A DNA stretch of 47,530 nucleotides from Thermoplasmatales archaeon SW_10_69_26. Its GTDB lineage: Archaea; Thermoplasmatota; SW-10-69-26. This document shows positions 27,974 to 47,530 of the stretch, in pieces. The DNA lies in contig PXUB01000034.1 of the NCBI GenBank assembly GCA_003009755.1, positions 1 to 47,530 of the forward strand, written 5' to 3'. The stretch's first letter is position 1. Each line of letters opens with the position of its first letter. The notes under the pieces were generated by a model, which was not told the origin of the DNA, made no database searches, and saw only the letters and a program-made list of their open reading frames with translations. Position numbers and translations under genes: made by a program.

Positions 27974-29935
27974 CTATTCGCCCACGACCTCCACGTTGTC
28001 GACGTACCAGCCGGGGTAGTCGTTGTAGGCGTCGTCGATCGAGTCGAAGTAGTAGCGCAGCTGCAGGTCGCTGCTCGCCGAGCCGGAGATGTCGAAGCTG
28101 ACCTCGGTGTAGTCGCCGTTCGTGTGGTCACGGGAGTCCCACTGGGCGATCGTGCTCCAGCTCGAGCCGCCGTCGCTGCTGACCTGGACGCGCATCGTGT
28201 CGTACTCGGCGTCGTAGTTCTCCACCTCGAAGAAGTGGGCGAACTGCAACGTCACCGTCGAGTACCCGCTGGCGTCGATCGTCGGCGACTGAGCCCAGCC
28301 CTCGGCGGTGCCGGCGTCGTAATCGCAGTCGGGCGAGGCTCGGCTGAAGGCGAGCTGGTACTCGGGCGAGAACGGGCTCACGCAGTCCGAGGAGACCCGC
28401 CACAGGTCGTTGCTCATGCTGGACTTCGTCCAGCCGTCGGCCGAGCCGTCGTCGAAGTCCTCGGAGTAGACGGTGGTCGACCCGCTCGAGGACGAGACCG
28501 TCACGTCCTGGCTCGCCGAGTCCGTGGCGCCGTCGTCGTCGGTGACGGTGAGCGTCACGGTGTAGGTCCCGTCGCTATCGTAGGTGTGCGAGGTGGTCTC
28601 GCCCGTGCCCGCCGTGCCGTCGCCGAACTCCCAGTCGTAGCTGGCGATCGACCCGTCGTCGTCCGACGAGCTGGACCCGTCGAAGGTGCAATCGAGGTCG
28701 GTGCAGCTCGAGGTGAAGTCGGCCGTCGGCGGGCTGTTCGAGCCGCCGCTGGATCCGACGAGCACGCCGGTGTTCAGCCGACCGTCGCCCTGGCGGTTGG
28801 CGGACAGGCCGACGTCGTCGGCGCTCGTGGCCAGCTCGTCCTCCATGGTGGCGTGCGTGACGTCGCCGTTGGCGTCGATGTAGAGACCGACGGCGCCGCT
28901 GACGTGCGGGGTGCTCATCGAGGTGCCCGACTTCTCGGTGTAGCTGCTCGTCGAGCCACCGTCGACGCTGAGCACGTTGTTCCCCGGCCCCGCCAGATCG
29001 ACCTCGGGGCCCTGGCTGGAGAACGAGCAGAAGCCGTCGTTCTCGTCCGTGCAGGACACGATCACCGTCTTCGCCGGCCGCGAGGCCCACGGATCGCTCA
29101 CGCAGTCGGTGCAGGACCCGTCGTTGCCGGCCGCGGCGACGTGGATGACGCCCTTGTCGTTGGCGTAGTCGATCGCGTCGAGCAGCGCCTGATCGCTGCC
29201 GCCGCCCCACGAGTTGCTGGAGATGTGGGCACCCTTGTCGCCCAGGTCCTTGAGCGCCTGCGCGATGTCGCTGGTGCCGGCGGATCCGCAGCCGAAGTAC
29301 CCGCTGTCGAAGATCTTGTGCATGATGATGCTGGACTCGCTCATGCCGGCGATCCCGACACCGTTGTCCGTCGTGGCGGCCGCGGTCCCCGCCACGTGGC
29401 TCCCGTGGTAGCCGCAGGAGCTGGTGTCCTCGGGCGTGCCGTCGCTGTGGTAGTAGTCGTACCCGCTGACGCGATCGGCGGCGAAGTCCTCGTGGCCGTC
29501 CGCGATCCCGCTGTCGAGCACGCCCAGCTTCACAGCCGTGCTGCCGAGCGTGGTGTCCCAGGCGGACTCCGTGTTCGAGATCTGGGGACCGTACTGGTTG
29601 CTGTACTGCCCGTCGTCCGGGGTGTAGTGCAGCTCGTAGTCCCGGTGGTTCTCGTGCATGTAGCGTACGTCGTCGTCGGTCTTCACCTTCACCTCGAAGG
29701 TCGCCGGGTTGTCCGGGGCGACGACGAAGTACTCGAGATCGGCGTCGTGGAAGACGACCTCCTCGCCTTGGTACTCGTCGGTGTCCCGCGGCATCTGGTA
29801 GAACCCGACGACGTACTCATCGTCGTCGTCCTGGCCAGGCGTCAGGATGGGAACGTCGGCCGCTCCCGCCGCCGCCGTCGGCAGCCCGACGGCGAGCATC
29901 GACATGGCAATAGCTATCGCAAGCTGTTGGCGCAT
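27974..29935 (-). CDS. Secreted subtilisin-like serine protease with PKD and jelly-roll domains (paralogue 2)
   Basis: A 653-residue exported S8 protease. The ATG at 29935 opens a signal peptide ([24 protein letters not shown]); the longer frame to 30055 is rejected. The triad is complete: Asp141 (VLDSG), His177 (GYHGSH), Asn271 (oxyanion) and Ser339 ([11 protein letters not shown]). A PKD domain with YDWEFGDGT follows at about 405-480. The C-terminal 150 residues differ wholly from paralogue 1: a MAM/jelly-roll-like module ([15 protein letters not shown] ... [10 protein letters not shown] ... [12 protein letters not shown]). The pair thus shares a catalytic core but swapped tails, suggesting different binding targets. 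Confidence 0.95.
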
Positions 29936-29959
29936 GATCGGATCGACTCTCCTGCCGTT

Positions 29960-29974
29960 GGGGGCCAAGCCCCC
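29960..29974 (-). promoter_or_regulatory. 5'-leader hairpin of subtilisin paralogue 2
   Basis: GGGGGC and GCCCCC pair around a 3-nt loop, 25 nt upstream of the ATG at 29935. It is in the predicted leader but differs in sequence from the hairpin of paralogue 1. Confidence 0.45.
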
Positions 29975-30020
29975 GTGAACCCCCCAATAGGGCCGGCGCC
30001 ACGGCGAACCATGGGTCCAC

Positions 30021-30030
30021 GCATCAATGT
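30021..30030 (-). promoter_or_regulatory. TATA-like element of subtilisin paralogue 2
   Basis: Minus-strand ACATTGATGC lies about 90 nt upstream of the ATG and corresponds to the CATTGATAC element of paralogue 1. Confidence 0.45.
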
Positions 30031-30194
30031 TGGGGATCGACAGGCAAGGTTGCACGGGTCGCCGATCCGATCAGCGAGCGACGCTGACACCGTATGCCAA
30101 CCCAAGCGATCGGCGATGCCAGACAGCTGGTCGGGGCGGACCCGGGGTCGGTCGCGCGTGCGAGACCCGTCGGCCGCCCGCGGGCAAGCGCCCG

Positions 30195-31301
30195 TCACCG
30201 CCGCCGGCGGATCGCCACCCACAGCCCGGTCGCCAGCGCGATCGAGGCGAGGCCCAGCGGCCCGGGCGAGGCGTTGGCGGTCTGCGACTCGGCGTGGAAC
30301 GTCCACCGGGCGATCCCGGTGCCGCCGGCCGTGTTCGGCACCTCGATGCTGACCGAGTACTTGCGCGGATCGAGCGTGCCCTCGGGTCGATAGGTGATCG
30401 TCCCGTCCCCCACCTCGAAATTCGAGCGATCGACGCGCTCCTTGTCGAAGAACAGGCGCACGTCCTCCTCGACGATCGGCCAGCCCCGCTCGTCGTAGGA
30501 GGCCTCGATCAGGACGCTGTTGGCGGGCACCGTCCCGTTCGGCGCCGGCGTCACGGCTTCGACGAGCGGCTCGGGCGGCTCGGTGCTCTCCGCGGTCGTG
30601 ACCGTGATCGTCTCGCTCGTCGCGTTGTTGCCCGACCAGTCGGCGGCGTCGACGACCACCTCGTAGGTCGTGTTCGCATCCAGGCCCTGCACCGGGAACT
30701 GCTGCCAGGGGCCCGGACGGGCGGGGTAGGTCTGGATGATCTCGCCCTCCGTCGAGCGGACGAACAGCTCGGTGCGAGCGATCTCGCTCGTGTTCGTCGT
30801 CACGTCGAAGCCGATGTCGGTGCGGTTGCCGACGCTGACGATCTCGATCGTCGGCGAGGTCAGGTCGCGGGTGAGCGTGAGCTCGGCCTCGCGGCTCCCG
30901 TCCTCGCCGGTCCCGTTCAGGCCGAGGTCGTAGCGCCACCCGTCGTCGGTCTCGTTCAAGCTGAACACGTCGGCCGCGCGATCGACGTCGGTGACGCTGG
31001 GGGTCTGGATGAAGTGGTCACCGTCGACCAGGGGCACCAGCTGGCGGCCCTCCTCGATCGGGAAGCCGCGATCGATCTCCACGTGGGCGACGTGGTATTC
31101 CTCGGTCAGGTTCAGGGCCCAGGCGTACCGATCGGGCGCGTCCTGGTCCTCGCCGGTCACCAACCCGTCGGGGTCGGTGACCGACGTGTTGCCATCCTCG
31201 GCGATCGCGATCGTCACGTCCCCCTCGCTCGCCGCCGCCGTCCCCAGCCCCGCCAGGCCGAACACGACGACGGCGAGCACGACTCCCCATGCTCCTCGCA
31301 T
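30195..31301 (-). CDS. Surface protein with fibronectin/Ig-like domains and C-terminal anchor
   Basis: A 368-residue exported protein. The ATG at 31301 starts a signal peptide (RGAWGVVLAVVVFGLAGLGTAAA). The ectodomain has a fibronectin-III-like segment (FPVQGLDANTTYEVVVDAADWSGNNATSETITVTT, split here by its core) and Ig-like domains resembling the bacterial SbsA/CARDB group (YSVSIEVPNTAGG). It has many N-x-T/S sites that could be glycosylated. It ends ASPGPLGLASIALATGLW then AIRRRR, a transmembrane anchor like those of the M14, PLD-like and Ig-like proteins in this window. No enzyme motif is seen. It diverges from the acyl-CoA dehydrogenase gene. Confidence 0.8.
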   Translation of the reverse strand: MRGAWGVVLAVVVFGLAGLGTAAASEGDVTIAIAEDGNTSVTDPDGLVTGEDQDAPDRYAWALNLTEEYHVAHVEIDRGFPIEEGRQLVPLVDGDHFIQTPSVTDVDRAADVFSLNETDDGWRYDLGLNGTGEDGSREAELTLTRDLTSPTIEIVSVGNRTDIGFDVTTNTSEIARTELFVRSTEGEIIQTYPARPGPWQQFPVQGLDANTTYEVVVDAADWSGNNATSETITVTTAESTEPPEPLVEAVTPAPNGTVPANSVLIEASYDERGWPIVEEDVRLFFDKERVDRSNFEVGDGTITYRPEGTLDPRKYSVSIEVPNTAGGTGIARWTFHAESQTANASPGPLGLASIALATGLWVAIRRRR

Positions 31302-31325
31302 GCAGGGCCGAGCCGTGTCCGCCTC

Positions 31326-31333
31326 GAAAACCC
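31326..31333 (-). promoter_or_regulatory. TATA-like element of surface-protein gene
   Basis: Minus-strand GTTTTCGA lies about 28 nt upstream of the ATG at 31301. Confidence 0.4.
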
Positions 31334-31392
31334 TTCCCCGGCGCAGCCTCGCCTGGGGCCTGACCGCTGTCTGTAGTCCCGCGGTGGACAGG

Positions 31393-31400
31393 GCTATAAG
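31393..31400 (+). promoter_or_regulatory. TATA box of acyl-CoA dehydrogenase gene
   Basis: GCTATAAG is centred about 32 nt upstream of the ATG at 31429, in the 127-bp divergent promoter region. Confidence 0.6.
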
Positions 31401-31428
31401 CTGGCGGGCCACTCGGGGAGCCCGAGCG

Positions 31429-32547
31429 ATGCCGTTCCACCTCGACGACGAGCAGCAGATGATCCGACGGGTCGTCTCCGACCTCGTCGACAAGACCGTC
31501 CGCCCCCACGCCGAGGAGGTCGACCGCGAGCGCCGTCCCCCCGAGGAAGCCCTCGAAGGCCTGCGCGAGGTCGACCTCATGGGGATGCTTGCCTCCGCCG
31601 ATTACGGCGGCGGCGCCGACACGGTCACCTTCTGCGTCGCCGTCAAGGAGCTGGCCAAGGGCTGTGCCTCCACGGCCGCCCTCATGGGCCTGACGAACGC
31701 GCTCGCCACGCTGCCCGTCGACCTGCTCGGCACCGACGAGCAGAAGGAAACGTGGCTGGCCGAGCTGACCAGCGGCGCCAAGCTCGGCTCGTTCGCGTTG
31801 ACCGAACCCAACGCCGGCGCCGACGTCAGCTCGCTCGACACCAAGATCGTCGAGGACGGCGACGCCTGGACGCTGCGCGGCCAGAAGGCCTGGGTGCTCG
31901 GCGGACCGCTCGCCGACGTCCACCTCGTCGTCGCCCGCGGCCCCGAGGGCCCGACGACCGTGCTCGTCCCCGCCGACAGCGAGGGCGTCGAGACCGGGCC
32001 GCCCGAACGCCTGCTCGGCCTCCGCGGCGCCCAGACGAGCCCGCTGTACCTCGAAGAGGTCCCCGTCGGCGAGGACGAGGTGCTCGGCGACGCCGGCGAG
32101 GCGCTCCAGCAGCTCGCCGAACCGCTGCGCGTGTCCCGGTTGGCGATCGCCGCCTGCGCGACCGGCCTGCTCGAGGCCTCGCTGGCCGCCTCGCAGGACT
32201 ACGCCGACCAGCGCGAGCAGTTCGACGAACCGATCCGCAACTTCCAGGCGATCCAGAACCGCCTGGCCGGCGTGAAGACGGCCGCCTCGACCGCTCGCTC
32301 GCTCACGCTCAAGGCCGCCGACCGCCGCGACGAGGGCCAACCGTTCTCCTCGCAAGCCAGCGAGGCCAAGTGGCGAGCCACCGAGGACGCCCGCGAGCAC
32401 ACCCGCTCGGCGATCCGCCTGCACGGCGGCACCGGCTACATGCGCGAGGCCCACGTCGAGCGCTTCTACCGCGACGCGCGCACGCTCACGATCGTCGGTG
32501 GACCCAACCAGCTGCACCGCCAGCGCATCGTCGACCGGATGTACTGA
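31429..32547 (+). CDS. Acyl-CoA dehydrogenase
   Basis: A 372-residue FAD flavoenzyme that introduces the alpha-beta double bond in acyl-CoA (fatty acid or branched-chain amino acid oxidation), passing electrons to ETF. The three ACAD domains are in order: an N-terminal helical domain (FHLDDEQQMIRRVVSDL), a middle beta domain with FALTEPNAGAD and GQKAWVLGG, and a C-terminal helical domain with REQFDEPIRNFQAIQNRLA, IRLHGGTGYMREAHVERFYRD and a final TIVGGPNQLHRQRI. ACADs usually have Glu as catalytic base near the position of GGTGYMRE, or earlier in the helix; the exact residue needs alignment. Chain-length preference is not readable. Confidence 0.95.
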   Translation: MPFHLDDEQQMIRRVVSDLVDKTVRPHAEEVDRERRPPEEALEGLREVDLMGMLASADYGGGADTVTFCVAVKELAKGCASTAALMGLTNALATLPVDLLGTDEQKETWLAELTSGAKLGSFALTEPNAGADVSSLDTKIVEDGDAWTLRGQKAWVLGGPLADVHLVVARGPEGPTTVLVPADSEGVETGPPERLLGLRGAQTSPLYLEEVPVGEDEVLGDAGEALQQLAEPLRVSRLAIAACATGLLEASLAASQDYADQREQFDEPIRNFQAIQNRLAGVKTAASTARSLTLKAADRRDEGQPFSSQASEAKWRATEDAREHTRSAIRLHGGTGYMREAHVERFYRDARTLTIVGGPNQLHRQRIVDRMY

Positions 32548-32741: not shown

Positions 32742-32829
32742 AACGTTTATGCACACCTTGGGCCATCGACCCTAGGAGGCGCGAGGCTCGTCGCGGACGG
32801 CGAGGCTCGTCCACCCGTGCCTGGGAGGG
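32742..32829 (+). promoter_or_regulatory. Promoter, leader and Shine-Dalgarno of giant protein gene
   Basis: AACGTTTATGC (32742-32752) is a good TATA box, placing the transcript start near 32776. The leader of about 60 nt contains an 11-bp direct repeat CGAGGCTCGTC (32782-32792 and 32801-32811). It ends with GGAGG seven bases before the GTG start, unlike the leaderless housekeeping genes. Confidence 0.6.
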
Positions 32830-32835: not shown

Positions 32836-35800
32836 GTGAGCCATCGATCTGCTTCGACCCCGAGCCTGTTCGGACCAGCTGCCAAGCTCTCCGAAACGAC
32901 CCTCGTCCCGCTGTTCCTGGCGATCGCCATGGTCGCCGGACCGTTGACCAGCGTGGCCCCCCTCGCGTCCGCCTCGACGGCTGACGCGGGCGGCGTGGAC
33001 GACGCGATCGACTGGGTCGACGCTTGGCTCGACGACCACGACGACGACGCCAACCTCGTCGACGACCGAGCCGAAGCCGAGGCCCAAACGCTGATCGACG
33101 AGGACCGGGGCGGGGCTCCCGTCGGTGTGCTCGTCACCTACGACCACTGGCCCGACGACCACGATCTCGACCGGCTCGTCGCCGAGCACGGCGCCAGCCA
33201 GACGTACGCCTTCGAGATCGTCCCGACCGTCCAAGCTCAGGTCCCCGCCTCCCAGGTCTCCCAGCTCGGACAGGTCCCGGGCGTCGTCGCGGTCGAGTAC
33301 GACTACCCGATCGAGCCCGTCCTCGACGTCAGCTCCCCCGCCTCGCAGGCGCAGGAGCCCGCCAGCACGGGCAGCGCGTACGCCGGCAAGACGGCCCAAG
33401 CCCTCGGCTACGATGGCTCCGACACCGTGGTCGCCGTCCTCGACTCGGGCGTCCAGGACCAGCACAGCGCCTTCGCCGACACGCGCTTCGTCACCGGCGC
33501 CGACGTCTCCTCGCCCGGCTCGACCGGCGACGGGACCGGCGATCCCGGCGACTGCACGAACCCGCCCGACGACAACGGCCACGGGACGCACGTCGCCAGC
33601 ACCGTGCTCGGCGAGACCGCCGAGTCCGACGGGACCCGCCTGCCGGGCACCGCGCCCGGCGCCGGTCTCGTGGACGTCCGCATCGCCGCCAGCGGCGCCT
33701 CGATCGGCGGCGCCCTGCGCGGGTTCGAGTTCGTCGAGCGGTGGAACGACGCGCTGCGCGAGGGCGACCCGCTGTGCCCGCTCGCCAACGCCGACGACCG
33801 GATCGACGTCGCCACGCTGAGCTTCGGCTCGCTGAGCCCCGCCGAGGGCGACGCCGGCAGCACCGGCGAGGCGATCGAGCGCCTCAACGAGCAGGGCGTG
33901 GCCGTCACCGTCGCCGCCGGCAACTGCGGCCCGCAGGGATCGGCCGGCTGCACGACGACCGACAGCGAGGAGACCGTCACCAGCCCCGCCAACGCCGAGG
34001 GCGCGATCACGGTCGCCAACTCCAACGACCGCGAGACGATCGATCGCGGCGACGACCAGGTCAGCGCCAGCAGCTCGCGCGGTCCGATCGCCGGCAGCGC
34101 CTCCGACGCCAGCGACCTCGAGGACCGGTTCCGCAAGCCCGAGATCGCCGCGCCCGGCACCCAGATCACGGCCGCCGGCCTCTCCCCCGGCACCGTCTCC
34201 ACGCTCAGCGGGACCAGCATGGCGACCCCGCACGTCGCCGGCATCGCAGCCACGCTCGTCGAAGCCGGGCGCGACGTCGCCGACCAGACCGGCGGCGAGA
34301 ACCTGATGCTCCCCGACGGCACCGCCTACAACGACGACAGCTACGACGCCGGCGCCAACCCGGTCGTGGATGCCATCATCCACGCCGCCGAGTACAAGAC
34401 CGACGGCGTCCCCCAGGACATGCGGGACAAGTGGGAGGGCCCCGGCGCCGACGACCTCCGCTGGAACAACGGCTACGGCTACGGGCACGTCGACGCCTTC
34501 AGCGCACTCTGCTGGGCCTGGCAGAACGTCCTCCAGCCCGGCGGCGCCGCTCCGACCGACACCGTCGAGTCCGCCTGCGGCCTCGACGACCCGCTCACGG
34601 TCGACCTCGGCGGACCCTACACCGTCGAAACCGAGCGTCTCGTCACCCTCACTGCCGACGCGACCGGCGGCCAGTCCCCCTACGAGTACGCCTGGGACAC
34701 CGACGACGACGGCGCCTTCGACGACCGCACCGGCGACGCCATCCAGGTCTCCTACCCGACGACCGGCGCCTTCACGGTGAGCGTCAAGGTCTTCGACGAC
34801 GCCGGCGCCTCCAGCCAGGACGCGACGACCGTCGTCGTCAGCGAGGACGCCGACGACGGCTCGGGCCTGATCGAGATCACCGAACCGGACCGCGACGAGA
34901 CGGTCGACCCCCAGCTCGTCGTCGAGGGGATCGCCGGCTCCGAGGGCAACAGCCCGCCCTCCGCGAGCTGGACCCACACCAGCGACGGACTCACCGTCAG
35001 CTTCGACGCCACCGGGTCCACCGACCCCGACGGCGACCCCCTCACCTACGAGTGGACCTTCGGCGACGATGCCACCGCGCGCGGCGCCACCCCCGACCAC
35101 ACCTACGCGACCGGCGGCGACTTCACGGTCTGCCTGACCGTCTCCGACGGCTCGCTCACCGACGAGAGCTGCCGACAGATCAGCCTCACACGCCAGGACC
35201 CCCTCTCGCTCGTCACCGACCCCAAGGGTGACGCCGCCGGGCCCGTCACCGGCTCCAACGTCGACGAGCTCGACATCACCGAGGTCTCCGCCATCCAGAA
35301 CGAGGATGGATCGTTCACGATGGTGCTCTCGGTCAACGACCTCCAGCAGGCCACCGTCCCCGCCACGGAAGGCGGCAACGGGGCCATCTGGCGGGTGACG
35401 TGGGACTTCCCCGGCACCGACGGCCACTTCGTCTCCTTCGAGACCGGCCTCGTCAACACGACGGACCCCGGCAGCGTCTACACCGACTGCAGCTACGGCG
35501 AGTGGGACGGCAACATCGCCCAGTCCCAGGGCACGGCCCCGTGCACCGTCGACTACGGTGCCCCCGCCGAGATCCACCTGACGTACCCGGCCAACGCGAT
35601 GGCCGAGAACGGGTACGCCGGCGACGAGCTCCTCTCCGGCGTCCAGGGCCTCAGCTACACCTACCAGGGCAGCCCCCCCGACGCCTCGGTCAGCGCCGGC
35701 CTGACGACCCAGGTCGACGACACCGCCTCCGGCACGTACGAGCTGACCGGGACGAACGCCGAGCTCGCCGAGATCGGGCTCGGCTCCCGCGCCGACGCCC

Positions 35801-38800
35801 GCCAGGCCCCCGAGGAACCGCCCGAGGACCCCGAGATCGTGGACGAGGGCGGTGACGTCAACGGCGACACCGTGCCCGCCAGCCAGATGGACATCCAAGC
35901 CGGCTGGTTCGACGCGGACGCCTCCCACCTCTACGTCGGCCTCGAGCTCGACGACATCCCCCAGAACACGAACACGACGGCCTTCACGAGCTACCGCGTC
36001 GGGTTCCAGCCGGACTACCAGGTCGAGGATCCGACCTGGGGCGGCACCGTGCCCGAGGACGCCACGCTGACCGAGCTGCGGACCTTCGCCGCCTTCAGCC
36101 CGCTCGCCTTCGACAACCTCACCGAACCCACCACTCGGCAGTCCCCCTCGTTCGAGCTCCAGCTCACCTACGAGCAGAACGGCCGGTCCTTCTTCGCCAC
36201 CGTCGGCGACATCGAGGAGGCCAGCATCGATCCCGAGACCGACATCGTCTGGTGGGCCGTCGACCGCGACCTGCTGCAGTCCCCGCCGCCCGACAGCCGC
36301 ATCGTCGAGACGACCGCCACGAGCGCGCCCGCCATCGATGGCCTGCTCACGTTCCAGGGCGCCACGGCCGACACCGCTGGCCCCGGTGATCCGTTCTCGT
36401 TCCCCAAGAGCGCCGACCAGATCCCGCCGACGGTCACCCTCGACGCCTCCCCCGTCAGCGGCTCGGCCCCCCTCGACGTGACCTTCCAGCCCGACACCGA
36501 CGCCGACGATGTCGCCTCCTGGACGATCCGCTACGGCGACGGCGCCTCCGAGTCCGGCACCGGCGGTCTCCCCGCCGAGCTCGGCCACGTCTACGACGCC
36601 GCGGGCGAGCACACCGCCACGCTCGAGGTCACCGACAGCAACGGCCAGACCGGCACCGCGAAGGCGACGGTCAACGTCACCCCGCCCGAGGGCCGCTCCG
36701 TCCGCGTGACGGCCGGCGACCTCGACCCCGTGTGGGCCAACTGCGAGGACGCCTGCAGCACCTGGACGGCGGCCCTCGACCTCGACGCGCTCGAGCCCGG
36801 CACCACCAGCCTCACCGCGACCCTCGTCGAGGACGGCGAGGTGCTCGGCCGCGACACCGTCGCCGTCGAGGTGACCCCCGACGACGGGCTCACGGTCCTC
36901 GCCCCCGAGGAGGACCAGCGCCTGCCGCCCGGCGACGTCCGCGTGCAGGGCGAGATCGACGACACCGATCGACCGCCGCGCGCGATGCTCGACGCCGAGC
37001 CCCAGCGCGGCTCCTCCCCGCTCGACGTCACCTTCGACCTCGACGGCGCCGACGACGAGGGCGTCGTCTCCTGGCGGCTGCTCACCGACGACGGCACCGT
37101 CATCGACGGGACCCAGCTCCCGATCGAGGCCGAGCACACCTACGACGAGCCCGGCAACTACACGGCCACCCTGCAGGTCACCGACACGGCCGGCCAGCGC
37201 GACACGAGGGCCGTCCCGATCGAGGTCGACGACGAGAACGAGGCCCCCGAGGCCCCGAACTCGCCCACGCCCGCGGACGGCTCCGGGGACGTCCCCCGAC
37301 CCCCGACGCTGAGCTGGGAGGCCAGCGACCCCGACGGTGACGAGCTCGTGTACGACGTCTACCTCGACACCTCCGCCCAGCCGGACACCCTCGTCCGCAC
37401 GGGCCTGGAGGACCCCTCGTTCGTCGCCACGGACCTCGAGCCCTCGACCACCTACCACTGGCAGGTCGTCGCCGACGACGGCCTCACCACGACCGAGGGC
37501 CCGGTCTGGAGCTTCACGACGGCGGCAGCCTCCGGGCTCGCCAACTCCCCGCAGACCGTCATCGCCTACATCGACAGCGGCGGGTTCCCCTACCACGAGC
37601 AGTTCCAACGCGCCGAGCACGACCAGCACCCCAGCGAGTACATCGAGGGCTACCCCGCCGACGCCCAGGCGCTGGACCTGTGCTTCTTCGACCAGGCGTC
37701 CGGCACGGTCGACCGCAGCAACTGCCCCGACTCCCCGACCGCGGCCGCCGAACAGGACGTCGACGAGTGGCGCAAGCTCGGCGTCACCGGCACCGGGCAG
37801 ACCGGGCCCGGCGAGGGCGATCTCGCCTACGTGCCCGGCACGAACGTGGTCGGCGCGATCAGCTTCGCCCACGACGGCGACGCCGACTACCCCACCCTCG
37901 ACGGTGACAAGGGCGACGGCGACGCCCACGGTACGTGGGTGGCCGGCTCGATCGCCGGCCAGACGACCGGCTCCTGCCCCGACTGCCTGATCGTCACGAT
38001 CGAAGCCGACAGCGTCTCGGCCATCGAATCCGGCTGGCAGTGGGCCGCCCAGCAACCCTGGATCGACGGCATCACGTCCAGCGTGTACGCCGGCATCTGC
38101 ACCCCGGTGGGGGTCTGCCAGAGCATCGACGGCTTCGCGACCTCGATCGCCAGCTCCACGCAGACGGCCGCCGAGAACGGCAAGCTCGTCTTCGAGGCCG
38201 CCGGCAACGGCGTCGGCGGCGCCGGCCTCGCCACCTCGACCACGGCGCCCGACTCGAACTTCGCGCCCTGGTCGATCTCCGTCGGCTGCTCCTCCGAGAG
38301 CGGCCACTCCTGCCTCTACAGCGACGAGCCCGCCCCGATCACCGCCACCGGCACACCTCGCCAGACCGCCGACCCGGGCACCTACGACGGCACCAACGAC
38401 CCGGTCGGGACGAGCTTCTCCTCGCCCAGCGCCGCCGGTGTCGCCGGCCAAGCGCTGGTGTCCCTGCGCGCCGAGCTCGGCGCGACGACCGAGGGCCCGG
38501 CCGCCGACGCGAACAACTCCCTCGTCGAACCCGCCAGCGACGCCACCCTCCCCGAGGACACGGCGCTCACCAACGGCGAGCTGACGAAGAAGGAGCTCGA
38601 GGAGGCCCTGTTCAAGACCGCCCGACGCGGCGTGCTGCCCTCGACGCCCGCCTGGATCGTACCCGTGGAGACCCCCGACTCGCCCGCCGGCTTCCTCAAG
38701 GGCGGCTACGGCGACGTCTACCGCGGCGCCTGGGGCGTCAACCACGAGTCCGCCTCCAGCTCGGACTCGACCGCCGGCGCCGTCTCCGCCACGCTCCTCG

Positions 38801-41800
38801 GCGAGACCGAGATGCCGAACCGGTACCTCGAGGAGACGTACTGGGAGGACGCCGTCGAACCGATGCAACGCCAGGTCCACGGCGAGGAGCCCGAGGAGCC
38901 CGACGACGACGCCTGGCCCACCGACGACGAGGCCAGCCCCGATGGCCTCGACGGCCACCAGGGCGGATCGTCCACCACCACGACCAGCTCCTCGGGGGAC
39001 CTCGCCCAGCCCGCGTCCACGCGGCCGCAGGGCGACCAGCCGACGCCCGACAACAGCCGGCTGTACCTGCACCACGACCAGACCGACGCCGAGAGCGTGA
39101 GCGACGGCGCCGACCTCTACATGAACACGATCCCCGACCCCGGAGACGGCTGCAGCGGCCCCGGCTGCCCCGACACCACGCCCTGGGGCGCCACCGGCGC
39201 CGGCACCAGCGGCGAACAGCAGACATACGAGATGGATCACCCCGAGCTGGCTGACACGCTGCTCCTCGACGAGGACGGCCAGATCACCGTCCACGTCGAA
39301 GCCACCGGCATCTTCGACAACCCGCCCACGCCGACCGAGGTCGACGTCACGCTCCAGGATGGCGACGGGCTCGTCGCCACCGGCCAAGCCGACCGCGAGA
39401 TCCCCGGCTCCGCCGACCACGCCACCTACGAGGCCACCCTCGACCCGGTGGCCTACACCATCGAGGACACGCTGACGCTATCGATCACGTGGGATGACCG
39501 GCAGTACAGCTTCCACGTCCAGAGCCACGGGGCCTCGTGGGTCGATCTCCCGCTCACGGGGAGCGCGGACGAGCTCGACTACGAGCAGGACAGCTTCTAC
39601 CTCGACGACCTCGACGCGAACATGGGCAACGGCGAGACGGTGCCGCTGACCCGCGACGAGGCCGACCTGCAGGGCGATCCCGACACCGGGACCACCTACC
39701 TGCGCGCCTACCGCAACGGGTTCACGTTCAACCTCGACAGCGGCCAAGACGACGCCGCAGCCGGCGAGAACGTGCTGCTCGGCAACGACGGCTCCGCCAC
39801 CCTGTGGGTCTGCACGGCGCCGGTCCTCTCCTACGGCGCGACCGAGTTCACCGTCGAGGTCGCACTCCAAGCCGGGGACACGCCGCTGGGCGGGGGCTCG
39901 GTCACCCAGACCTACGCCGGTGCGCACGACGGCTCCTCGCAGGCGATCACCGTTCCCTTGGACCTGCACGAGACGCTCGTGCCCGAGGACGAGCCGCTGA
40001 CCGGCTCGATCACCGTCGAGGGCGCCACGGGCTTCTACACCTCGAACATCGCCTTCTGCGGCGGCAGCGCTGACAAACCGTGGAGCCTCGACCTCCTCTC
40101 CGCCGAGCTGGGCACCCAGCTGCCCAGCACGGACCTCACCGAGGCCCCCGACGGCACCCTCGCGGGCGAGACCCCCCTCGAGGGCACCTACGAGGCCCCC
40201 GAGGACCCCGGCCTCCAGCAGACCACCTGGTACGCGACGAACTTCGACCAGTGGTCCGAGGGCGACGCCGAAGCCCAGAGCCCCGAGCTGCGGCTCGGCA
40301 CCGAGGGGCCCGGGCCCGGCAGCGGCGGACCGATCCTGCCGCCCGAGGAGGACGGCTACACGATCGAGCTCACCAGCGAGCAGCCGCTGCTCGACGAAGC
40401 CGACGAGATCCTCGACGAGGGCGCCGGCAGCGCCCAGTTCTGGGTCACCGCCGCCGGCGGCGCGACCGACGTCCGCGTGGACCTGACCGCCATGCTCGAG
40501 GGCTCCAACGGCGACCGTCGCGTGCTCGGGGAGGGCTCCGTCACCAAGCACGTCGTCCCGCCGTTCGGGACCGTGCGGACCCTCACCCACGAGCCCTTCC
40601 GCGTCGACTTCGAGCCCGCCGTCACCGACGTCGCGGACGACGAACGTCTCGTCCTCCGCGCGCAGGTCACCAACGTCGGTCCGGCCACGACCACGCAGGT
40701 CACCTGCGTGTGCGGCGGCGAGGAGCGCCCGATCACCGTCAGCCTGCCGACCGACGACGCCGTGACGCCGAGGGATCCCCAGGTCCGCGTGACCGTGGAC
40801 GAAGCCATCGACCGCCGCGTCCCGGCCGACAGCTCCCCATGGAGCACCACGATCGACACGACCGAGCTCCCGGACGGCGAGCACACCATCACCGCCACGC
40901 CCGAAGCGACCTACGGCGACGAGACCCGCCAAGGCACGCCCCAGGAGGCCACCTTCACCTCCGACAACGACCTCTCGAACGAGGCGCCAAGCGCCTCGCT
41001 CGCGGTCGACCCGCTCAGCGGGACCGCGCCGCTCGCCGTGACGGCCAACGCCGACGCCACCGACGACGACACGCCCCGCGATCAGCTCTCCTGGACGCTC
41101 ACCTGGGGCGACGGCTCCGCCCAGGAGTCCGGCACCGGCCTCCCGGCCGAACTCACCCACGAGTACGCCGACCCCGGCGAGTTCACGGTGACGCTCGAGG
41201 TCACCGACGACGAGGGCGAGACCGGCACCGCGACCGCGAGGGCCCAGGTCTTCGCCCCCGCCGAGGAGAAGGTGATCGTCACCCTCGGCAACGAGACGAT
41301 CGAAGCCCAGGCCGACGCCGACGACGGCTCGCTGGCCGCGTGGCACGCCGACATCCCCAGTGTCGACCGTGGCCTGCACGAGGTCACCGTCGAACACGTC
41401 GAAGAGAACGCGCAAGAGACGACCGTGTTCGCTCGCGAGCAGCTGCTTCTCCGCGTCGAACCCTCCGGCGTCCCCGAGACCGCCATCGAGGGCCCCGGCG
41501 AGGACACCCGCGTCCACGAGACGACCCCCATCGAGGGCCGCATCACCGGGTACACCGGCGAGGAGGAGCCGACGCGAACGAGCACGTCCCTGACGACCGA
41601 CAGCTCGCAGGCCGCCGTGGCGCCGATCGTCCAGGACGTCGTCGACGCGGGCGAGCCCGCGCCCAGCGTGCCCGAGCCCGTCACGACCGACGCGCTCGAG
41701 CCCGCGCTCGAGCACCTCGTCGACGTGGCCGGCGGCGACCCCGAGCGCGTCAGCGACGAGCTCGACCAGGCCACGATCCCCGAGGAGGCCGAGACGCCGC

Positions 41801-44800
41801 TCGCCAGCCTCGCCGAGGCCGTCGCGCAAGCCACGGAGATGCGCCGCGAGGCGATCGATCTCTCGACGACCGAGCTCGAGACCGTCGAGCTCACGCCGAC
41901 GCTGCTGGAAGCCGTCGACGTCGACCACGCCCAGCTCGTCGAGGCCCAGCTGCTCGTCGCCACCACCGTCGACGAGCACCGCGAGAGCCTGGAGCAGGTG
42001 CCCGCGGAGGCCGACGAGGACGACGCCCCCGCCTTCGAGATCGAGGGCATCGTCGCCTTCGACAACGAGGGCGACACGACCTACGAGCCCGGGCACTACT
42101 TCCTGAAGGTCGACACCGCCGGCCAGGACACGCACCGCGACACCGCCGGCGGCGCCTACGGTCTCACTCTGGACCGCGACGTCTCCGTCTCGATCGACAC
42201 CGACGGCGCCGACACCTACGACGGCGACTGGTCCGCGCCTGCCAGCTCCTCCTTCGAGACGTTCCAGGGAGCGGCCACGAACGTCGGGCTCGGCCTGCTC
42301 GCCGACACCGTCGGCGACGACAGCTACACCGTCACCGGCGACGTCGCCGAGGCGACCAGCGACAACGTCCAGCGCGCCGCCCAAGGCGCCGGCCAGGTCG
42401 CCTCGGTCGGCGTGCTCGCCGATCTCGCTGGCGAGGACACCTACGAGGCCACGCTCACCGGCATCGACGACAACGCTGCATCCACGATGCTGGCCTCCGC
42501 GCAAGGCGCCGTGCACGACACCGGCCGGATCAACCCCGGCTACACGCTGCTGTTCGACCGTGAAGGCGACGACGCCTACGAGGCCACCTTCGACGGCGAC
42601 GCCGCCTACCAGGGCGACGTGAACCCTGTCACGGTGCCGTCGGTCGCCGCGCTCGTCGACGGCGACGGCTCCGACGACTACAGCCGCCCCGTCAACGGCG
42701 ACTACCTCGCGCGCACGACCGCGCCCGACACCGCCGCCGGCGCCGCCCACTTCCTCGACACCGCGCCCGAGGACCCCTCCGTCCACGTCCGCGAGCCAGC
42801 CGCGGGCGACACGGTCCGCCAGACCGCCGACGTCACGGTCGAAGCCCGCGACCTCGACGATATGCTGGGCACCTCCGGCGCCCGCTTCGTGACGCAGGTC
42901 GAGGCCGAGATCGGCGACAAGGGCTTCGTCGACCTCACCCAGCAGGGCGACACCGACCGCTGGACCGGCACGCTCGACCTCGCCGGCGAGGACGGCGCCA
43001 CCGAGCTCACCGCGCGCGCCACGAACGTCGACGGGAGCACGGCGACGGACACGATCACCGTCGACGTCAACAACGACCTACCGCCGACGCTCGCCGTCGA
43101 CGAGACGATCACGCGCGCCAGCCCGACCGAGGATCCCGCCGTCAGCCTCGACCTCTCCGGCACCGAGGACCCCGAGGGCTCCACGCTGGCCTACACGATC
43201 GCCTGGGGAGACGGCAGCGAGACCACGCGCACCAGCCCGCACGACGTCAGCGACGTCTCGCACACCTACGACACCGGCGAGTACACGATCGCGGTCACCG
43301 TCGAGGACGAGGCCGGCAACGCCGACGAGGCCACGCTCGACGTCGACCTCTCGCCGCCCGCGTTCGCCAGCGTCACCCAGGAGGACGTCCAGGTCGCGAG
43401 CGCCAACTACACCGTCGACCTCGACGACGAGGGCACCCTCGACGCGAGCCTCGACGGCGCGGGCACCGTCGACGTCACCGAGCAACCCAGCGCCTTCGAG
43501 GTCAACGCCACCGAGCTCGACGCCGCGACGACCTACACGCTGACGCTCACCAGCGCCGACGACCTCGGCAACGAGGCCCAGACCACCGAGACGTTCACCA
43601 CCTCCGAGCCCGACAACGAGCCGCCGACGGTCGCCCTGGACCTCGACGCCACCACGGTCCCGACCGGCGGCACGGTCGAGGCCACCGTGACGGCCGAGGA
43701 CCCCGAGGACGGCGCCCTCTCCGAGGCGACGGTCACCTGGGACGATGGCACGCAAGAGACCGTCGCGCTGACGAACGGCGAGGGCCAGGCTCGGCACACC
43801 TACGACGAGCGCTGCGAGTGCACCGTGCACGCCCAAGCCACCGACAGCGACGGCGCCAGCGCCTCCGACAGCGTCGACCTCGTCGTCGACCACGCTCCCC
43901 AGGTCACGCTCACCGTGCCCGCCAGCCCCGCGCCCGAGACCGACGAGCACACGATCGAGCTCGACGTCACCGACGCCGACGACGATCCGATCCGAGCCGA
44001 TCTGCGGCTCGAGGGCGAACCCGTCACCCTGCGCGAGGCCGACCCCGCGGACAACACGACGGACGACGGCAAGCTGTTCACCGCCACCGTCGACCCCGAC
44101 GCCGGCACCGTCACCGCGAGCGCCGACGTCCACGACGGTCTCCGCACGACGACCGAGGAGACCAGCTACACGGTGAACGCCGCGCCGAACGTGACCGGCA
44201 CCCTGTCCCCCTGGAGCGGCACGCAGGACACCACGTTCACCTACGATGCCGCGACGAGCGACGCCGACGGCGACCCCGTGAGCCTCACCCTCCTCGTCGA
44301 CCACCGGGAGATCGAGCTCGGCCCCGACCGCACCGCGCAGCTCGACCTCGACGACGGCCAGCACCGCTTCGCCCTCCTCGCCACGGACGGCTTCGACGAG
44401 GTCCGCTGGCCCGGCCCCGGCGCCTGGGCCTTCGGCCCCGTCGTCGGCAACCTCTCGCAGGTCGAGATCTCCGCCGACGGCACGTTCGCGGATCCGACCG
44501 TGGCCCAGACCGACGGCGACCTCGACGACTGGACCCGCCAGCTCGGGGACGTCGGCCTCGCCGAGGACCAGGCCCACGAGGTCCACGTCCGCGGCGTGGA
44601 CGCTGACCACGGCCCCGGGCCCGCCGCCACCGTGAACCTGACGATGGACCAGCTCCCGACGCCCAGCATCGAGGTCCTCACCGCCACGCCCGTCCGCACG
44701 GGCACCAGCCTCGACCTGCAAGGCTCGGCCGAGCCCAGCACCCACGGCGACGACGTGCCCCCGGAGAACCTCGCCTGGAGCTTCGGCGACGGCGCCACCG

Positions 44801-47530
44801 CCACCGGCCCCGACGTCGACCACGCCTTCGCCGACGACGGCACCTACGACGTCACCCTGACCGCCACCGACACCGAGGGCCGCGACGGCGAGACGACGAC
44901 GCAGATCCAGGTGCTCAACCGCGCGCCCACGGTCTCGCTCGCCACCGACCCGAGCCCGGCCTACCAGAGGGATCCGACCACGATCGAGCTCGCGAGCGAG
45001 GACCCCGACGGCACCGTGGCCAGCGAGGCGATCCGCGTCTACAACGGCACGTCCACCGAGGACGAGCTGCTCGCCTCCGGCACGAGCCCGGTCGACGTCA
45101 CCTTCCCCGACGACGGCGCGTTCCTGATCGTCGGCGAGGCCACCGACGACGACGGTGACACGGCCACCACCGAGGTCACCCTGCACGTGCGCAACCGCGC
45201 CCCGCAGGCCGACCTGGCCGTCGAGCCGAGCCGGCAGTTCACCGGCGCGAACGCGACCCTCGACGCCTCGGCCACGACCGACCCCGACGGCGAACCCGTC
45301 GCGTACACCTTCGAGACCGGCGACGGCAACCGCACCCGGACGACGTCCCCGACCCTCGCGCACGCCTACACGCAGACCGACCGCTACCAGGCCGACCTCG
45401 CGGTCGAGGACGACGACGGCGCCACCGCCACGGCCGACACCGTCACCGTCGACGTCCACGCCTACCCGACCGTGCCCGACCAACACGTCGCCAAGGGCCG
45501 CAACCTGAGCTTCGCCGTCGAGACCGTCACGCCCGGCGAGGCCACGCCCGCCGCCCTCTCGATGCACGCCCCCGGGCTCCCCGAGGACGCGTCCTTCGAG
45601 GAGCACGGCGACGGCACCGGGACCTTCTCCTGGCAGACCACCGTCGACGACGCGGGCACCTACGAGGCCAACTTCACCGCCGACCTCGGCGAGACCGAGC
45701 AGACGCAGACCGTCGCGATCCAGGTCACCGCCGAGGAGCCTGCGGCCGTCAACGAACGCACCCGCCACGGGTACGACACGATCCAGGCCGCCATCGACGA
45801 CGCCCGAGCCGGCGACACGGTCCTCGTCGGCTCCGGCACCCACGCGGAGGAGGTCACCGTCGACCGACCCGGCCTGACCCTGTGCCCGGCCGACGCGGAC
45901 GACACCGGGTGCGCCGCGGACGCCACGCGGCCGACGCTGGCCTCCGACACCGGGCTCGGCGTGGCCGTCACCGCCGACGGCGTCCACGTCGAAGGCCTGG
46001 CCATCCGGCCCAGCGGCGCCGCGAGGGAGACCGTCGGCCTCGCCGCCGGCACCGACGCCGGCCCCGTCGACGGGCTCGTCCTCGAGAGCAACCGCATCCA
46101 ACCCGGCAGCGAGCTGCTCACCGACCTCGGCGGCACCGGCCTGGACATCGAGGCCACGAACGCCACGATCACCGCCAACGAGTTGCGCTCGTGGACCCAG
46201 GGCCTGAGCCTCGCCGCCGACGAGACACGGGTCACGGACAACACGGTCGAGGCCTCGACGCTGGGCTTGACCGTCACCGACGGCGACGCGATCACGCTCG
46301 CCGGCGACCGCGTCCACGCGGCCGACACCGCCTACCGCATCGAGGCCGCCAGCGACGTGCTCGTCGCGGACGCGCTCGTGACCGCGACGGCCACCGGTGT
46401 CGAGCTCGCCGCTGGCGAGGCCGGTGTGCAGCCGACCGACGTCACGGTGAACAACACGCGGCTGGAGACCACCACGGTCCCGCTGGCGTTGACCTGCAAC
46501 GACTGGGGTGCCTACCACCGCGGCGCGATCGAGGAGCGCATCCAGGACGCCGGTCAAAAGAACACCGTCGAGTTCCAGCCCTGGCAGGGCCCCAACCCGG
46601 ACGTCACGCTCGACAACGGCTGCCTCGTCGAGCCCGTGAGCGCGTTCGAGCACACGCCCGAGGGCCCGACCCGGCAAGACGAGGTCCGGTTCAACGAGAC
46701 CGCCCGCCCCGGCTCGGCGCCGATCCTCACCTACGAGTGGGACTTCGGCGACGGCACCACGAGCCGCATGGCCAACCCCACCCACTCCTACGACGAGCTG
46801 GGTAGCTTCGAGGTCGAGCTCACCGTGGAGGACGCCAACGGCATGCGGTCCACCACGACGCAGACCGTCGACGTGCGGAACCTCGCCCCCGGGCTGGACG
46901 CCCCGATCGCCGTCGAGAGCGCCCACGAGCAGGACCTGTCGGTCGACGTGAGCGCCAGCAGCGAGGAGGGTGACGCGGTCGAGCTGTCCGCCAGCGGCAC
47001 CCCGCTCGCCGAGGGGGCTACGTTCACCGTGGAGGATCAGGGGACCGCGGCCCCGGTCGCTACGTTCAACTGGACGGACATCGACGCGAGGGACCGCGGC
47101 ACCTACGTGCTCGAGGTCACCGCCAGCGACGAGCACGGCGCCGAGACCACCGACCAGGTCGAGGTCACGGTCACCGACGAGGCGCCCACCCTCGACCCGG
47201 TCGAGGATCCGACGACGCGGTTGGGTCACGAGGTCACGTTCACGGCGAACGCCACGGACGAGAACGGCGATCCGGTCGAGCTGACCGCCAGCGGCGTGCC
47301 CTCCAACGCGACGTTCACGGTCGAGAACCAGACCACCGCCGAGCCGACGGCCACGTTCGTCTGGACCCCGACCGGGGACAGCCAGGTCGGCGAGCACAAC
47401 ATCACGCTCGCCGCCGAGGCCGAGGGGCTGGCGGACACGCAGATGGTGACGGTCACCGTGGGTGAGGAGAACCAGCCGCCGGCGATCGCGATCGAGCGCG
47501 GGGGCTCGCCCGTGGGTGATACGGTGACGG
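32836..47530 (+). CDS. Giant secreted protein with two subtilase domains, PKD/Ig repeats and a beta-helix (partial, 3' end outside window)
   Basis: One frame stays open for 4,898 codons to the window edge. The GTG at 32836 has GGAGG seven bases upstream; residues 22-46 form a signal peptide. An I9-like propeptide (95-158) precedes subtilase 1: Asp203, His249, Asn363, Ser461 (GTSMATPHVAG). PKD-like domains lie near 590-670, 704-790, 1197-1285 and 1380-1465, with DPxGDAxG-type beta domains at 795-1190 and an Fn3-like domain at 1469-1562. Subtilase 2 (about 1570-1900) has Asp1580, His1698, Asn1791 and Ser1860 (GTSFSSPSAAG). Then come an acidic Ser/Thr linker (about 2016-2075), a PKD near 2716, a helical block (2936-3065), GDDxY repeats (3076-3290), many more PKD/Ig domains, a parallel beta-helix (4305-4600) and more Ig-like repeats. 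Likely an exported or surface-bound protease. Confidence 0.93.
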   Translation, partial: MSHRSASTPSLFGPAAKLSETTLVPLFLAIAMVAGPLTSVAPLASASTADAGGVDDAIDWVDAWLDDHDDDANLVDDRAEAEAQTLIDEDRGGAPVGVLVTYDHWPDDHDLDRLVAEHGASQTYAFEIVPTVQAQVPASQVSQLGQVPGVVAVEYDYPIEPVLDVSSPASQAQEPASTGSAYAGKTAQALGYDGSDTVVAVLDSGVQDQHSAFADTRFVTGADVSSPGSTGDGTGDPGDCTNPPDDNGHGTHVASTVLGETAESDGTRLPGTAPGAGLVDVRIAASGASIGGALRGFEFVERWNDALREGDPLCPLANADDRIDVATLSFGSLSPAEGDAGSTGEAIERLNEQGVAVTVAAGNCGPQGSAGCTTTDSEETVTSPANAEGAITVANSNDRETIDRGDDQVSASSSRGPIAGSASDASDLEDRFRKPEIAAPGTQITAAGLSPGTVSTLSGTSMATPHVAGIAATLVEAGRDVADQTGGENLMLPDGTAYNDDSYDAGANPVVDAIIHAAEYKTDGVPQDMRDKWEGPGADDLRWNNGYGYGHVDAFSALCWAWQNVLQPGGAAPTDTVESACGLDDPLTVDLGGPYTVETERLVTLTADATGGQSPYEYAWDTDDDGAFDDRTGDAIQVSYPTTGAFTVSVKVFDDAGASSQDATTVVVSEDADDGSGLIEITEPDRDETVDPQLVVEGIAGSEGNSPPSASWTHTSDGLTVSFDATGSTDPDGDPLTYEWTFGDDATARGATPDHTYATGGDFTVCLTVSDGSLTDESCRQISLTRQDPLSLVTDPKGDAAGPVTGSNVDELDITEVSAIQNEDGSFTMVLSVNDLQQATVPATEGGNGAIWRVTWDFPGTDGHFVSFETGLVNTTDPGSVYTDCSYGEWDGNIAQSQGTAPCTVDYGAPAEIHLTYPANAMAENGYAGDELLSGVQGLSYTYQGSPPDASVSAGLTTQVDDTASGTYELTGTNAELAEIGLGSRADARQAPEEPPEDPEIVDEGGDVNGDTVPASQMDIQAGWFDADASHLYVGLELDDIPQNTNTTAFTSYRVGFQPDYQVEDPTWGGTVPEDATLTELRTFAAFSPLAFDNLTEPTTRQSPSFELQLTYEQNGRSFFATVGDIEEASIDPETDIVWWAVDRDLLQSPPPDSRIVETTATSAPAIDGLLTFQGATADTAGPGDPFSFPKSADQIPPTVTLDASPVSGSAPLDVTFQPDTDADDVASWTIRYGDGASESGTGGLPAELGHVYDAAGEHTATLEVTDSNGQTGTAKATVNVTPPEGRSVRVTAGDLDPVWANCEDACSTWTAALDLDALEPGTTSLTATLVEDGEVLGRDTVAVEVTPDDGLTVLAPEEDQRLPPGDVRVQGEIDDTDRPPRAMLDAEPQRGSSPLDVTFDLDGADDEGVVSWRLLTDDGTVIDGTQLPIEAEHTYDEPGNYTATLQVTDTAGQRDTRAVPIEVDDENEAPEAPNSPTPADGSGDVPRPPTLSWEASDPDGDELVYDVYLDTSAQPDTLVRTGLEDPSFVATDLEPSTTYHWQVVADDGLTTTEGPVWSFTTAAASGLANSPQTVIAYIDSGGFPYHEQFQRAEHDQHPSEYIEGYPADAQALDLCFFDQASGTVDRSNCPDSPTAAAEQDVDEWRKLGVTGTGQTGPGEGDLAYVPGTNVVGAISFAHDGDADYPTLDGDKGDGDAHGTWVAGSIAGQTTGSCPDCLIVTIEADSVSAIESGWQWAAQQPWIDGITSSVYAGICTPVGVCQSIDGFATSIASSTQTAAENGKLVFEAAGNGVGGAGLATSTTAPDSNFAPWSISVGCSSESGHSCLYSDEPAPITATGTPRQTADPGTYDGTNDPVGTSFSSPSAAGVAGQALVSLRAELGATTEGPAADANNSLVEPASDATLPEDTALTNGELTKKELEEALFKTARRGVLPSTPAWIVPVETPDSPAGFLKGGYGDVYRGAWGVNHESASSSDSTAGAVSATLLGETEMPNRYLEETYWEDAVEPMQRQVHGEEPEEPDDDAWPTDDEASPDGLDGHQGGSSTTTTSSSGDLAQPASTRPQGDQPTPDNSRLYLHHDQTDAESVSDGADLYMNTIPDPGDGCSGPGCPDTTPWGATGAGTSGEQQTYEMDHPELADTLLLDEDGQITVHVEATGIFDNPPTPTEVDVTLQDGDGLVATGQADREIPGSADHATYEATLDPVAYTIEDTLTLSITWDDRQYSFHVQSHGASWVDLPLTGSADELDYEQDSFYLDDLDANMGNGETVPLTRDEADLQGDPDTGTTYLRAYRNGFTFNLDSGQDDAAAGENVLLGNDGSATLWVCTAPVLSYGATEFTVEVALQAGDTPLGGGSVTQTYAGAHDGSSQAITVPLDLHETLVPEDEPLTGSITVEGATGFYTSNIAFCGGSADKPWSLDLLSAELGTQLPSTDLTEAPDGTLAGETPLEGTYEAPEDPGLQQTTWYATNFDQWSEGDAEAQSPELRLGTEGPGPGSGGPILPPEEDGYTIELTSEQPLLDEADEILDEGAGSAQFWVTAAGGATDVRVDLTAMLEGSNGDRRVLGEGSVTKHVVPPFGTVRTLTHEPFRVDFEPAVTDVADDERLVLRAQVTNVGPATTTQVTCVCGGEERPITVSLPTDDAVTPRDPQVRVTVDEAIDRRVPADSSPWSTTIDTTELPDGEHTITATPEATYGDETRQGTPQEATFTSDNDLSNEAPSASLAVDPLSGTAPLAVTANADATDDDTPRDQLSWTLTWGDGSAQESGTGLPAELTHEYADPGEFTVTLEVTDDEGETGTATARAQVFAPAEEKVIVTLGNETIEAQADADDGSLAAWHADIPSVDRGLHEVTVEHVEENAQETTVFAREQLLLRVEPSGVPETAIEGPGEDTRVHETTPIEGRITGYTGEEEPTRTSTSLTTDSSQAAVAPIVQDVVDAGEPAPSVPEPVTTDALEPALEHLVDVAGGDPERVSDELDQATIPEEAETPLASLAEAVAQATEMRREAIDLSTTELETVELTPTLLEAVDVDHAQLVEAQLLVATTVDEHRESLEQVPAEADEDDAPAFEIEGIVAFDNEGDTTYEPGHYFLKVDTAGQDTHRDTAGGAYGLTLDRDVSVSIDTDGADTYDGDWSAPASSSFETFQGAATNVGLGLLADTVGDDSYTVTGDVAEATSDNVQRAAQGAGQVASVGVLADLAGEDTYEATLTGIDDNAASTMLASAQGAVHDTGRINPGYTLLFDREGDDAYEATFDGDAAYQGDVNPVTVPSVAALVDGDGSDDYSRPVNGDYLARTTAPDTAAGAAHFLDTAPEDPSVHVREPAAGDTVRQTADVTVEARDLDDMLGTSGARFVTQVEAEIGDKGFVDLTQQGDTDRWTGTLDLAGEDGATELTARATNVDGSTATDTITVDVNNDLPPTLAVDETITRASPTEDPAVSLDLSGTEDPEGSTLAYTIAWGDGSETTRTSPHDVSDVSHTYDTGEYTIAVTVEDEAGNADEATLDVDLSPPAFASVTQEDVQVASANYTVDLDDEGTLDASLDGAGTVDVTEQPSAFEVNATELDAATTYTLTLTSADDLGNEAQTTETFTTSEPDNEPPTVALDLDATTVPTGGTVEATVTAEDPEDGALSEATVTWDDGTQETVALTNGEGQARHTYDERCECTVHAQATDSDGASASDSVDLVVDHAPQVTLTVPASPAPETDEHTIELDVTDADDDPIRADLRLEGEPVTLREADPADNTTDDGKLFTATVDPDAGTVTASADVHDGLRTTTEETSYTVNAAPNVTGTLSPWSGTQDTTFTYDAATSDADGDPVSLTLLVDHREIELGPDRTAQLDLDDGQHRFALLATDGFDEVRWPGPGAWAFGPVVGNLSQVEISADGTFADPTVAQTDGDLDDWTRQLGDVGLAEDQAHEVHVRGVDADHGPGPAATVNLTMDQLPTPSIEVLTATPVRTGTSLDLQGSAEPSTHGDDVPPENLAWSFGDGATATGPDVDHAFADDGTYDVTLTATDTEGRDGETTTQIQVLNRAPTVSLATDPSPAYQRDPTTIELASEDPDGTVASEAIRVYNGTSTEDELLASGTSPVDVTFPDDGAFLIVGEATDDDGDTATTEVTLHVRNRAPQADLAVEPSRQFTGANATLDASATTDPDGEPVAYTFETGDGNRTRTTSPTLAHAYTQTDRYQADLAVEDDDGATATADTVTVDVHAYPTVPDQHVAKGRNLSFAVETVTPGEATPAALSMHAPGLPEDASFEEHGDGTGTFSWQTTVDDAGTYEANFTADLGETEQTQTVAIQVTAEEPAAVNERTRHGYDTIQAAIDDARAGDTVLVGSGTHAEEVTVDRPGLTLCPADADDTGCAADATRPTLASDTGLGVAVTADGVHVEGLAIRPSGAARETVGLAAGTDAGPVDGLVLESNRIQPGSELLTDLGGTGLDIEATNATITANELRSWTQGLSLAADETRVTDNTVEASTLGLTVTDGDAITLAGDRVHAADTAYRIEAASDVLVADALVTATATGVELAAGEAGVQPTDVTVNNTRLETTTVPLALTCNDWGAYHRGAIEERIQDAGQKNTVEFQPWQGPNPDVTLDNGCLVEPVSAFEHTPEGPTRQDEVRFNETARPGSAPILTYEWDFGDGTTSRMANPTHSYDELGSFEVELTVEDANGMRSTTTQTVDVRNLAPGLDAPIAVESAHEQDLSVDVSASSEEGDAVELSASGTPLAEGATFTVEDQGTAAPVATFNWTDIDARDRGTYVLEVTASDEHGAETTDQVEVTVTDEAPTLDPVEDPTTRLGHEVTFTANATDENGDPVELTASGVPSNATFTVENQTTAEPTATFVWTPTGDSQVGEHNITLAAEAEGLADTQMVTVTVGEENQPPAIAIERGGSPVGDTVT
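42061..42705 (+). repeat. GDDxY repeat block inside the giant protein
   Basis: Residues about 3076-3290 contain imperfect repeats of some 35-40 residues. Copies centre on LADTVGDDSYTVTGD, LADLAGEDTYEATLTG, LFDREGDDAYEATFDGD and LVDGDGSDDYSRP, with an AQGA segment between some copies. The regular D-x-x-G-D-D-x-Y turns suggest a beta-solenoid or calcium-binding strip. Confidence 0.65.

Follow-up and report, generated by a model that had tools for sequence, protein, structure and literature searches.

Chains with two intact subtilases have hardly been described. The nearest precedent, the spore protein CspBA of Clostridioides difficile, has two subtilisin-like domains encoded by one frame, of which the second is a dead pseudoprotease, and is cut between these neighbouring domains by YabG (PMC12880746). 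A literature phrase search for two S8 domains in one protein returned no paper. The archaeal S8A enzymes Pro-Tk-SP and pro-Tk-subtilisin (PDB 3afg, 2e1p) consist of a prodomain followed by a catalytic domain, an order probably shared with the N-terminal module of the protein described here, whose best fold matches they are, but they have one protease domain in a far smaller protein. Stand-alone subtilases with a DTGINPYH signature, found in Thermoplasmatota and some bacteria, are homologous to its second subtilase domain (25–40% identity, the same motifs and no large prodomain); unlike the giant, they are mostly encoded by single genes of about 410–750 amino acids, many of them lipoprotein-like. 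The protein resembles CspBA in the encoding of two subtilisin-like domains by one frame, but differs in that both catalytic sets are intact, that these lie about 1,120 residues apart and that it is a predicted secreted PKD giant. A CspBA-type fusion, with an active first domain and a neighbouring pseudoprotease, was rejected on this basis, and domain 1 matches the CspBA model (NCBIfam NF040809) only weakly, at 32 bits against a cut-off of 1250.

The window, meaning the whole stretch of DNA analysed, is one complete contig (C34, 47,530 bases) of an archaeal MAG of 2.8 Mb that is 95% complete. The features of the giant locus are as follows.

30991..32547, + strand: complete acyl-CoA dehydrogenase gene, upstream of the giant
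32746..32751, + strand: TTTATG, a TATA-like box by consensus match only, 90 bp upstream of the start
32823..32829, + strand: GGGAGGG, a Shine-Dalgarno-like stretch ahead of the GTG start, read in the sequence
32836..47529, + strand: giant ORF of 4,898 codons, with a GTG start and open at the 3' end
32836..32976, + strand: signal-peptide-like N-terminus (residues about 1–47), inferred from a hydrophobic stretch
33118..33300, + strand: I9-like prodomain (residues about 95–155), from a low-to-moderate-confidence model and a fold match
33415..34485, + strand: subtilase domain 1 (residues 194–550; D203/H249/N363/S461), PF00082 at 128.7 bits
34591..35184, + strand: first two PKD domains (residues 586–668 and 708–783), by Pfam
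37549..38715, + strand: subtilase domain 2 (residues about 1572–1960; D1580/H1698/N1791/S1860), DTGINPYH-signature family, by PF00082, profile and model
42013..42765, + strand: GDDxY-type repeats (residues about 3060–3310), read from the translation
45772..46515, + strand: beta-helix-like region (residues about 4313–4560), a weak NosD-like match
46395..47530, + strand: stretch common to the end of contig C33 (88–90% identity, final 99 bases identical), an assembly break

The frame of the giant ORF contains no stops, against 57 and 16 in the two other plus-strand frames, and third-position GC is 0.89–0.98 in each 200-codon block; on these two grounds the ORF is real coding sequence. The probability that the frame is open by chance, given the ORF's own base composition, is about 1e-31. 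The initial annotation had described one uninterrupted frame with two S8 domains, and this holds, as PF00082 matches both domains and the frame is unbroken over all 4,898 codons. It had also named an assembly error joining two genes, or a start with a promoter between the domains, as ways in which the single chain could prove false, and neither was found. There are no exact repeats of at least 99 bases within the ORF before 46395, so that two genes are unlikely to have been fused by a k-mer join between the S8 domains. A TATA-like box was looked for between the two domains and none was found; the TTTATG at 32746 is the sole archaeal TATA-like hexamer from 32600 to the contig end (47530), and the single in-frame start with a Shine-Dalgarno-like motif between the domains, at 37348, has a weak one. 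The protein is acidic, with about 18% Asp+Glu and 4% Lys+Arg, a composition that fits a salt-adapted host.

The last 99 bases at the right end of the contig are identical to the end of contig C33, also from this genome, and identity over the last 1.1 kb is 88–90%; this end is an assembly break at a repeat. Residues past about 4520 (46395 on) could be cross-joined and belong to either the C34 or the C33 locus. The 99-base end was not found on any third contig of the bin; because the contig ends within the ORF and nothing in the bin continues it, the stop codon and the C-terminus lie beyond the available sequence, and the flanking DNA that had been called for to locate the stop and any C-terminal anchor is absent from the bin. 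Surface anchoring of the protein is accordingly a guess, given where the C-terminus lies. The ends of related giants differ: one (L080) closes with PGPG, a hydrophobic stretch and a basic tail, and the C33 giant has no such ending.

The Asp-His-Ser triad and oxyanion Asn of domain 1 occur in order at the positions first assigned to them and are invariant in an alignment with relatives, and the domain scores far above the curated PF00082 cut-off of 21.8 bits. Domain 1 together with its leader was modelled at low confidence (pLDDT 52), and in this model the leader has the order strand-helix-strand-strand-helix-strand, the beta-alpha-beta-beta-alpha-beta order of the I9 fold. The top PDB fold match of the N-terminal module is pro-Tk-SP (ProN-Tk-SP), and pro-Tk-subtilisin was also matched; Pfam gave no I9 match upstream of domain 1. 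The earlier description of a classical PKD-linked subtilisin with an I9-like propeptide is upheld by PF00082 and the PKD domains as far as the subtilisin is concerned, and the proenzyme fold matches point to an I9-like propeptide.

Domain 2 is more divergent. Taken alone it matches PF00082 at 30.4 bits (37873–38457), above the cut-off, and its triad and oxyanion Asn, also in order and as first assigned, are invariant or at least 90% conserved in the alignment. A profile of its family matches PDB subtilisins at E 3e-22. The structure prediction suggested in the initial annotation, where the absence of a subtilase fold was named as a possible refutation, gave a subtilisin fold when domain 2 was modelled with 22 relatives (pTM 0.81), and the 50 best matches in a PDB fold search with this model were all subtilases. 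By profile and by predicted fold, both domains are therefore assigned to the S8 subtilases, and catalysis is predicted for both. The spacing of about 1,400 residues first given is right from start to start (Asp to Asp, 1,377) but not for the distance between the domains (Ser461 to Asp1580, 1,119), and the Fn3-like domain placed ahead of domain 2 is absent from the Pfam calls at E 0.01. That the S8 domains are embedded in a PKD mosaic was borne out, with PKD domains called by Pfam and the GDDxY and beta-helix-like parts located. The beta-helix-like region shares 65% identity with the gene behind the C33 giant, and an ORF on C37, another contig of this genome, is weakly similar to the GDDxY repeats (31%, E 1e-6).

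Relatives of domain 2 occur in all seven species of the class, mostly as single genes of about 420–740 amino acids, and are recognized by the signature (I/V)DTGINPYH and a conserved QPWID motif. A wider scan, with a profile from an 8-sequence subset of the 23-sequence domain-2 alignment, placed the family also in Poseidoniales, Marine Group III, other Thermoplasmata, Actinomycetota, Nevskiaceae and a Rubrivirga MAG; no viral relatives were found with a single-sequence query. Many stand-alone relatives have a lipobox, and in several the catalytic core begins within about 10–40 residues of the signal peptide or lipobox cysteine, too short a distance to accommodate an I9 prodomain. As the family has no large prodomain, the missing propeptide of domain 2 is inherited: domain 2 does lack one, as had been noted, but this is the rule in its family and not a peculiarity of the chain. 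In a quick tree the window's domain 2 forms a long unplaced branch within the archaeal part, and its end branch (1.72) is the fourth-longest among 70 relatives, which could mean a changed or relaxed function. The neighbourhoods of stand-alone domain-2 genes showed no general link to other S8 genes, the exceptions being an arrangement conserved in Poseidoniales and a single adjacent pair in genome G004. In the latter (L160, G004:C54) a classical subtilase gene, split between two frames, lies directly before a domain-2-type gene (3481–4054 and 4784–6019, + strand), so that both subtilase types are present there as separate neighbours.

The arrangement is not unique to one chain. Contig C33 carries a complete giant (P0002, 3,932 amino acids) with two S8 domains, each after a prodomain-like stretch, and HMMs built in this analysis located further chains, with two or three such domains, in another archaeon and in two bacterial MAGs. 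The archaeal chain, in genome G128 (L158), has a classical S8 domain at 201–508 followed by a domain-2 type. In its record (L158, 3883–7419 and 773–3967, both on the minus strand, G128:C76) a homologous PKD continuation lies in another frame, which marks a frame break. A Nevskiaceae protein of 2,117 amino acids (L127) has the order domain-2 type, classical, domain-2 type, and a Rubrivirga protein of 1,319 amino acids (L132) has a classical domain, then a domain-2 type, with a C-terminal secretion tail. The domain-2 type is thus joined to a classical S8 domain in three other genomes and, in a fourth (G012), to a C14 caspase-like domain (52.5 bits) in one secreted PKD chain (L157:256–5118, + strand, G012:C30); with the window protein this makes five chains that combine it with a second protease, against some 70 distinct domain-2 units seen. 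The classical domain of the window clusters in a quick tree with that of C33 and with single-gene subtilases, and the classical domains of L158, L127 and L132 cluster together in the same tree; the pairing of the two S8 types accordingly arose at least twice.

Among the PF00082 matches of seven genomes of the class, of which only one other (G001) belongs to the window's family, two separate S8 domains are present only in the two giants of this genome. A 4,072-residue ORF in G005 was rejected as a further case, its two PF00082 pieces being one interrupted domain. A trypsin-like unit in a cut 2,166-residue ORF of G004 (L081) was likewise discarded, as Pfam and PDB sequence searches up to E 1 do not support it; that cut giant (L081:3–6500, minus strand, G004:C285) has a domain-2-type subtilase, and the trypsin-like motifs AGHC and GDSGS were noted by eye only. 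The window itself holds two further neighbouring, closely similar subtilase-PKD genes (25900–27711 and 27974–30055, minus strand), a tandem duplicate with exact repeats of up to 69 bases, which with the giant's two brings the S8 domains in the window to four. At 10040–10214 there are short direct repeats, exact over 34 and 27 bases and separated by 120 bases.

The history of the C33 giant indicates how such chains can be put together. Residues 1–706 of the window protein are 50% identical to its first 700 residues. From residue 586 onwards, the C33 giant is colinear with the giant of genome G002 (L079, 3,989 amino acids) over 3,236 columns at 43.6% identity; the G002 giant belongs to another family of the class, and its N-terminus is a BNR-like domain (PF13088, E 0.002, below the curated cut-off) with no subtilase there. 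Like the window protein, both are PKD giants with an internal subtilase. The C33 giant has the N-terminal subtilase module in common with the window protein, whereas G002 has the BNR-like N-terminus instead, and in both giants the internal subtilase is a classical one that has an I9-like prodomain to itself and does not belong to the domain-2 family. The last 48 bases of the acyl-CoA dehydrogenase gene (32500–32547) recur as a remnant before the C33 giant, and the local alignment scores 84, whereas none of 200 shuffles exceeded 33. Most simply read, a locus of the window's type donated a copy of its N-terminal subtilase module, together with the upstream flank, to an older PKD giant, the direction being indicated by this remnant of the donor's neighbour together with the colinear relative that has no N-terminal subtilase. 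The tails are also close, the window giant and the gene behind the C33 giant sharing 65% protein identity over 600 columns and 88% DNA identity over the last 1.17 kb, so that the C34 and C33 loci have exchanged DNA more than once. That gene (L025, contig C33, 2–4066, minus strand) encodes a signal peptide and two beta-helix-like stretches and runs off the contig.

We propose, with a probability of roughly 0.6, that the window encodes a mosaic exoprotein secreted by a salt-adapted archaeon of the Thermoplasmatota, whose long stalk of beta domains carries two independent serine-protease modules. The N-terminal one, made up of a signal peptide, an I9-like prodomain, a classical subtilase and PKD, would fold and mature itself through its own prodomain, like the pro-Tk-subtilisins, and the second module, a compact subtilase from a mainly stand-alone secreted or lipid-anchored family, would work with no large prodomain. 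Spacing of the enzymes and binding to a surface or polymer may fall to the PKD, GDDxY and beta-helix parts, and the chain would digest extracellular protein with two different clefts. Such chains would arise by the grafting of ready-made modules onto PKD giants. The activity, location, dual specificity and mutual independence of the two enzymes are in each case predictions.

Another possibility is a processing relay: domain 1, once matured through its prodomain, would cut between the domains, freeing or activating domain 2 and separating surface parts. A classical S8 domain with a prodomain also precedes a domain-2-type S8 in the G128 and Rubrivirga chains, and the CspBA fusion is cut between its domains, although by another protease (PMC12880746). 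Most domain-2-type subtilases, however, stand alone with neither a partner nor a large prodomain and so appear to need none, and the Nevskiaceae chain has a domain-2-type unit first; we consider a relay unlikely. The main alternative is that the two subtilases met by chance through module shuffling and have no special function together. The genome is rich in PKD giants and in S8 genes (24 PF00082 matches), module exchange between its giants is demonstrable, and the restriction of PF00082-defined double-S8 chains to this genome, within its family and class, would agree with such an origin. Against it, full catalytic sets are retained in both domains despite strong divergence, and the two-type pairing is seen again in two bacterial phyla and in an archaeon from a different family; we consider an uncoupled meeting unlikely as well. 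An artefact of assembly or gene calling that fused two genes is very improbable: the sequence is a MAG contig whose right end is an unresolved repeat, but the unbroken frame, its even third-position GC and the lack of a joining repeat before 46395 or of an internal TATA-like box argue for one gene, as do the independent double-S8 giant in the same genome and the similar chains elsewhere.

A bolder reading is that DTGINPYH subtilases are a partner protease repeatedly joined with a second, self-activating protease to give true bifunctional chains with coupled activities. The second protease is a classical S8 in two lineages of archaea, in Nevskiaceae and in Rubrivirga, and a caspase-like one in another archaeon. 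We regard this reading as possible but less likely than not; if the two activities are coupled, the chain would show how a salt-tolerant exoprotease with two specificities can be designed in nature. The C33 giant provides a concrete case of how double-subtilase chains arise, through a 5' module graft that carries the footprint of the donor locus, and domain 2 points to a family of secreted subtilases that lack a large prodomain and may be used for testing folding and self-control.
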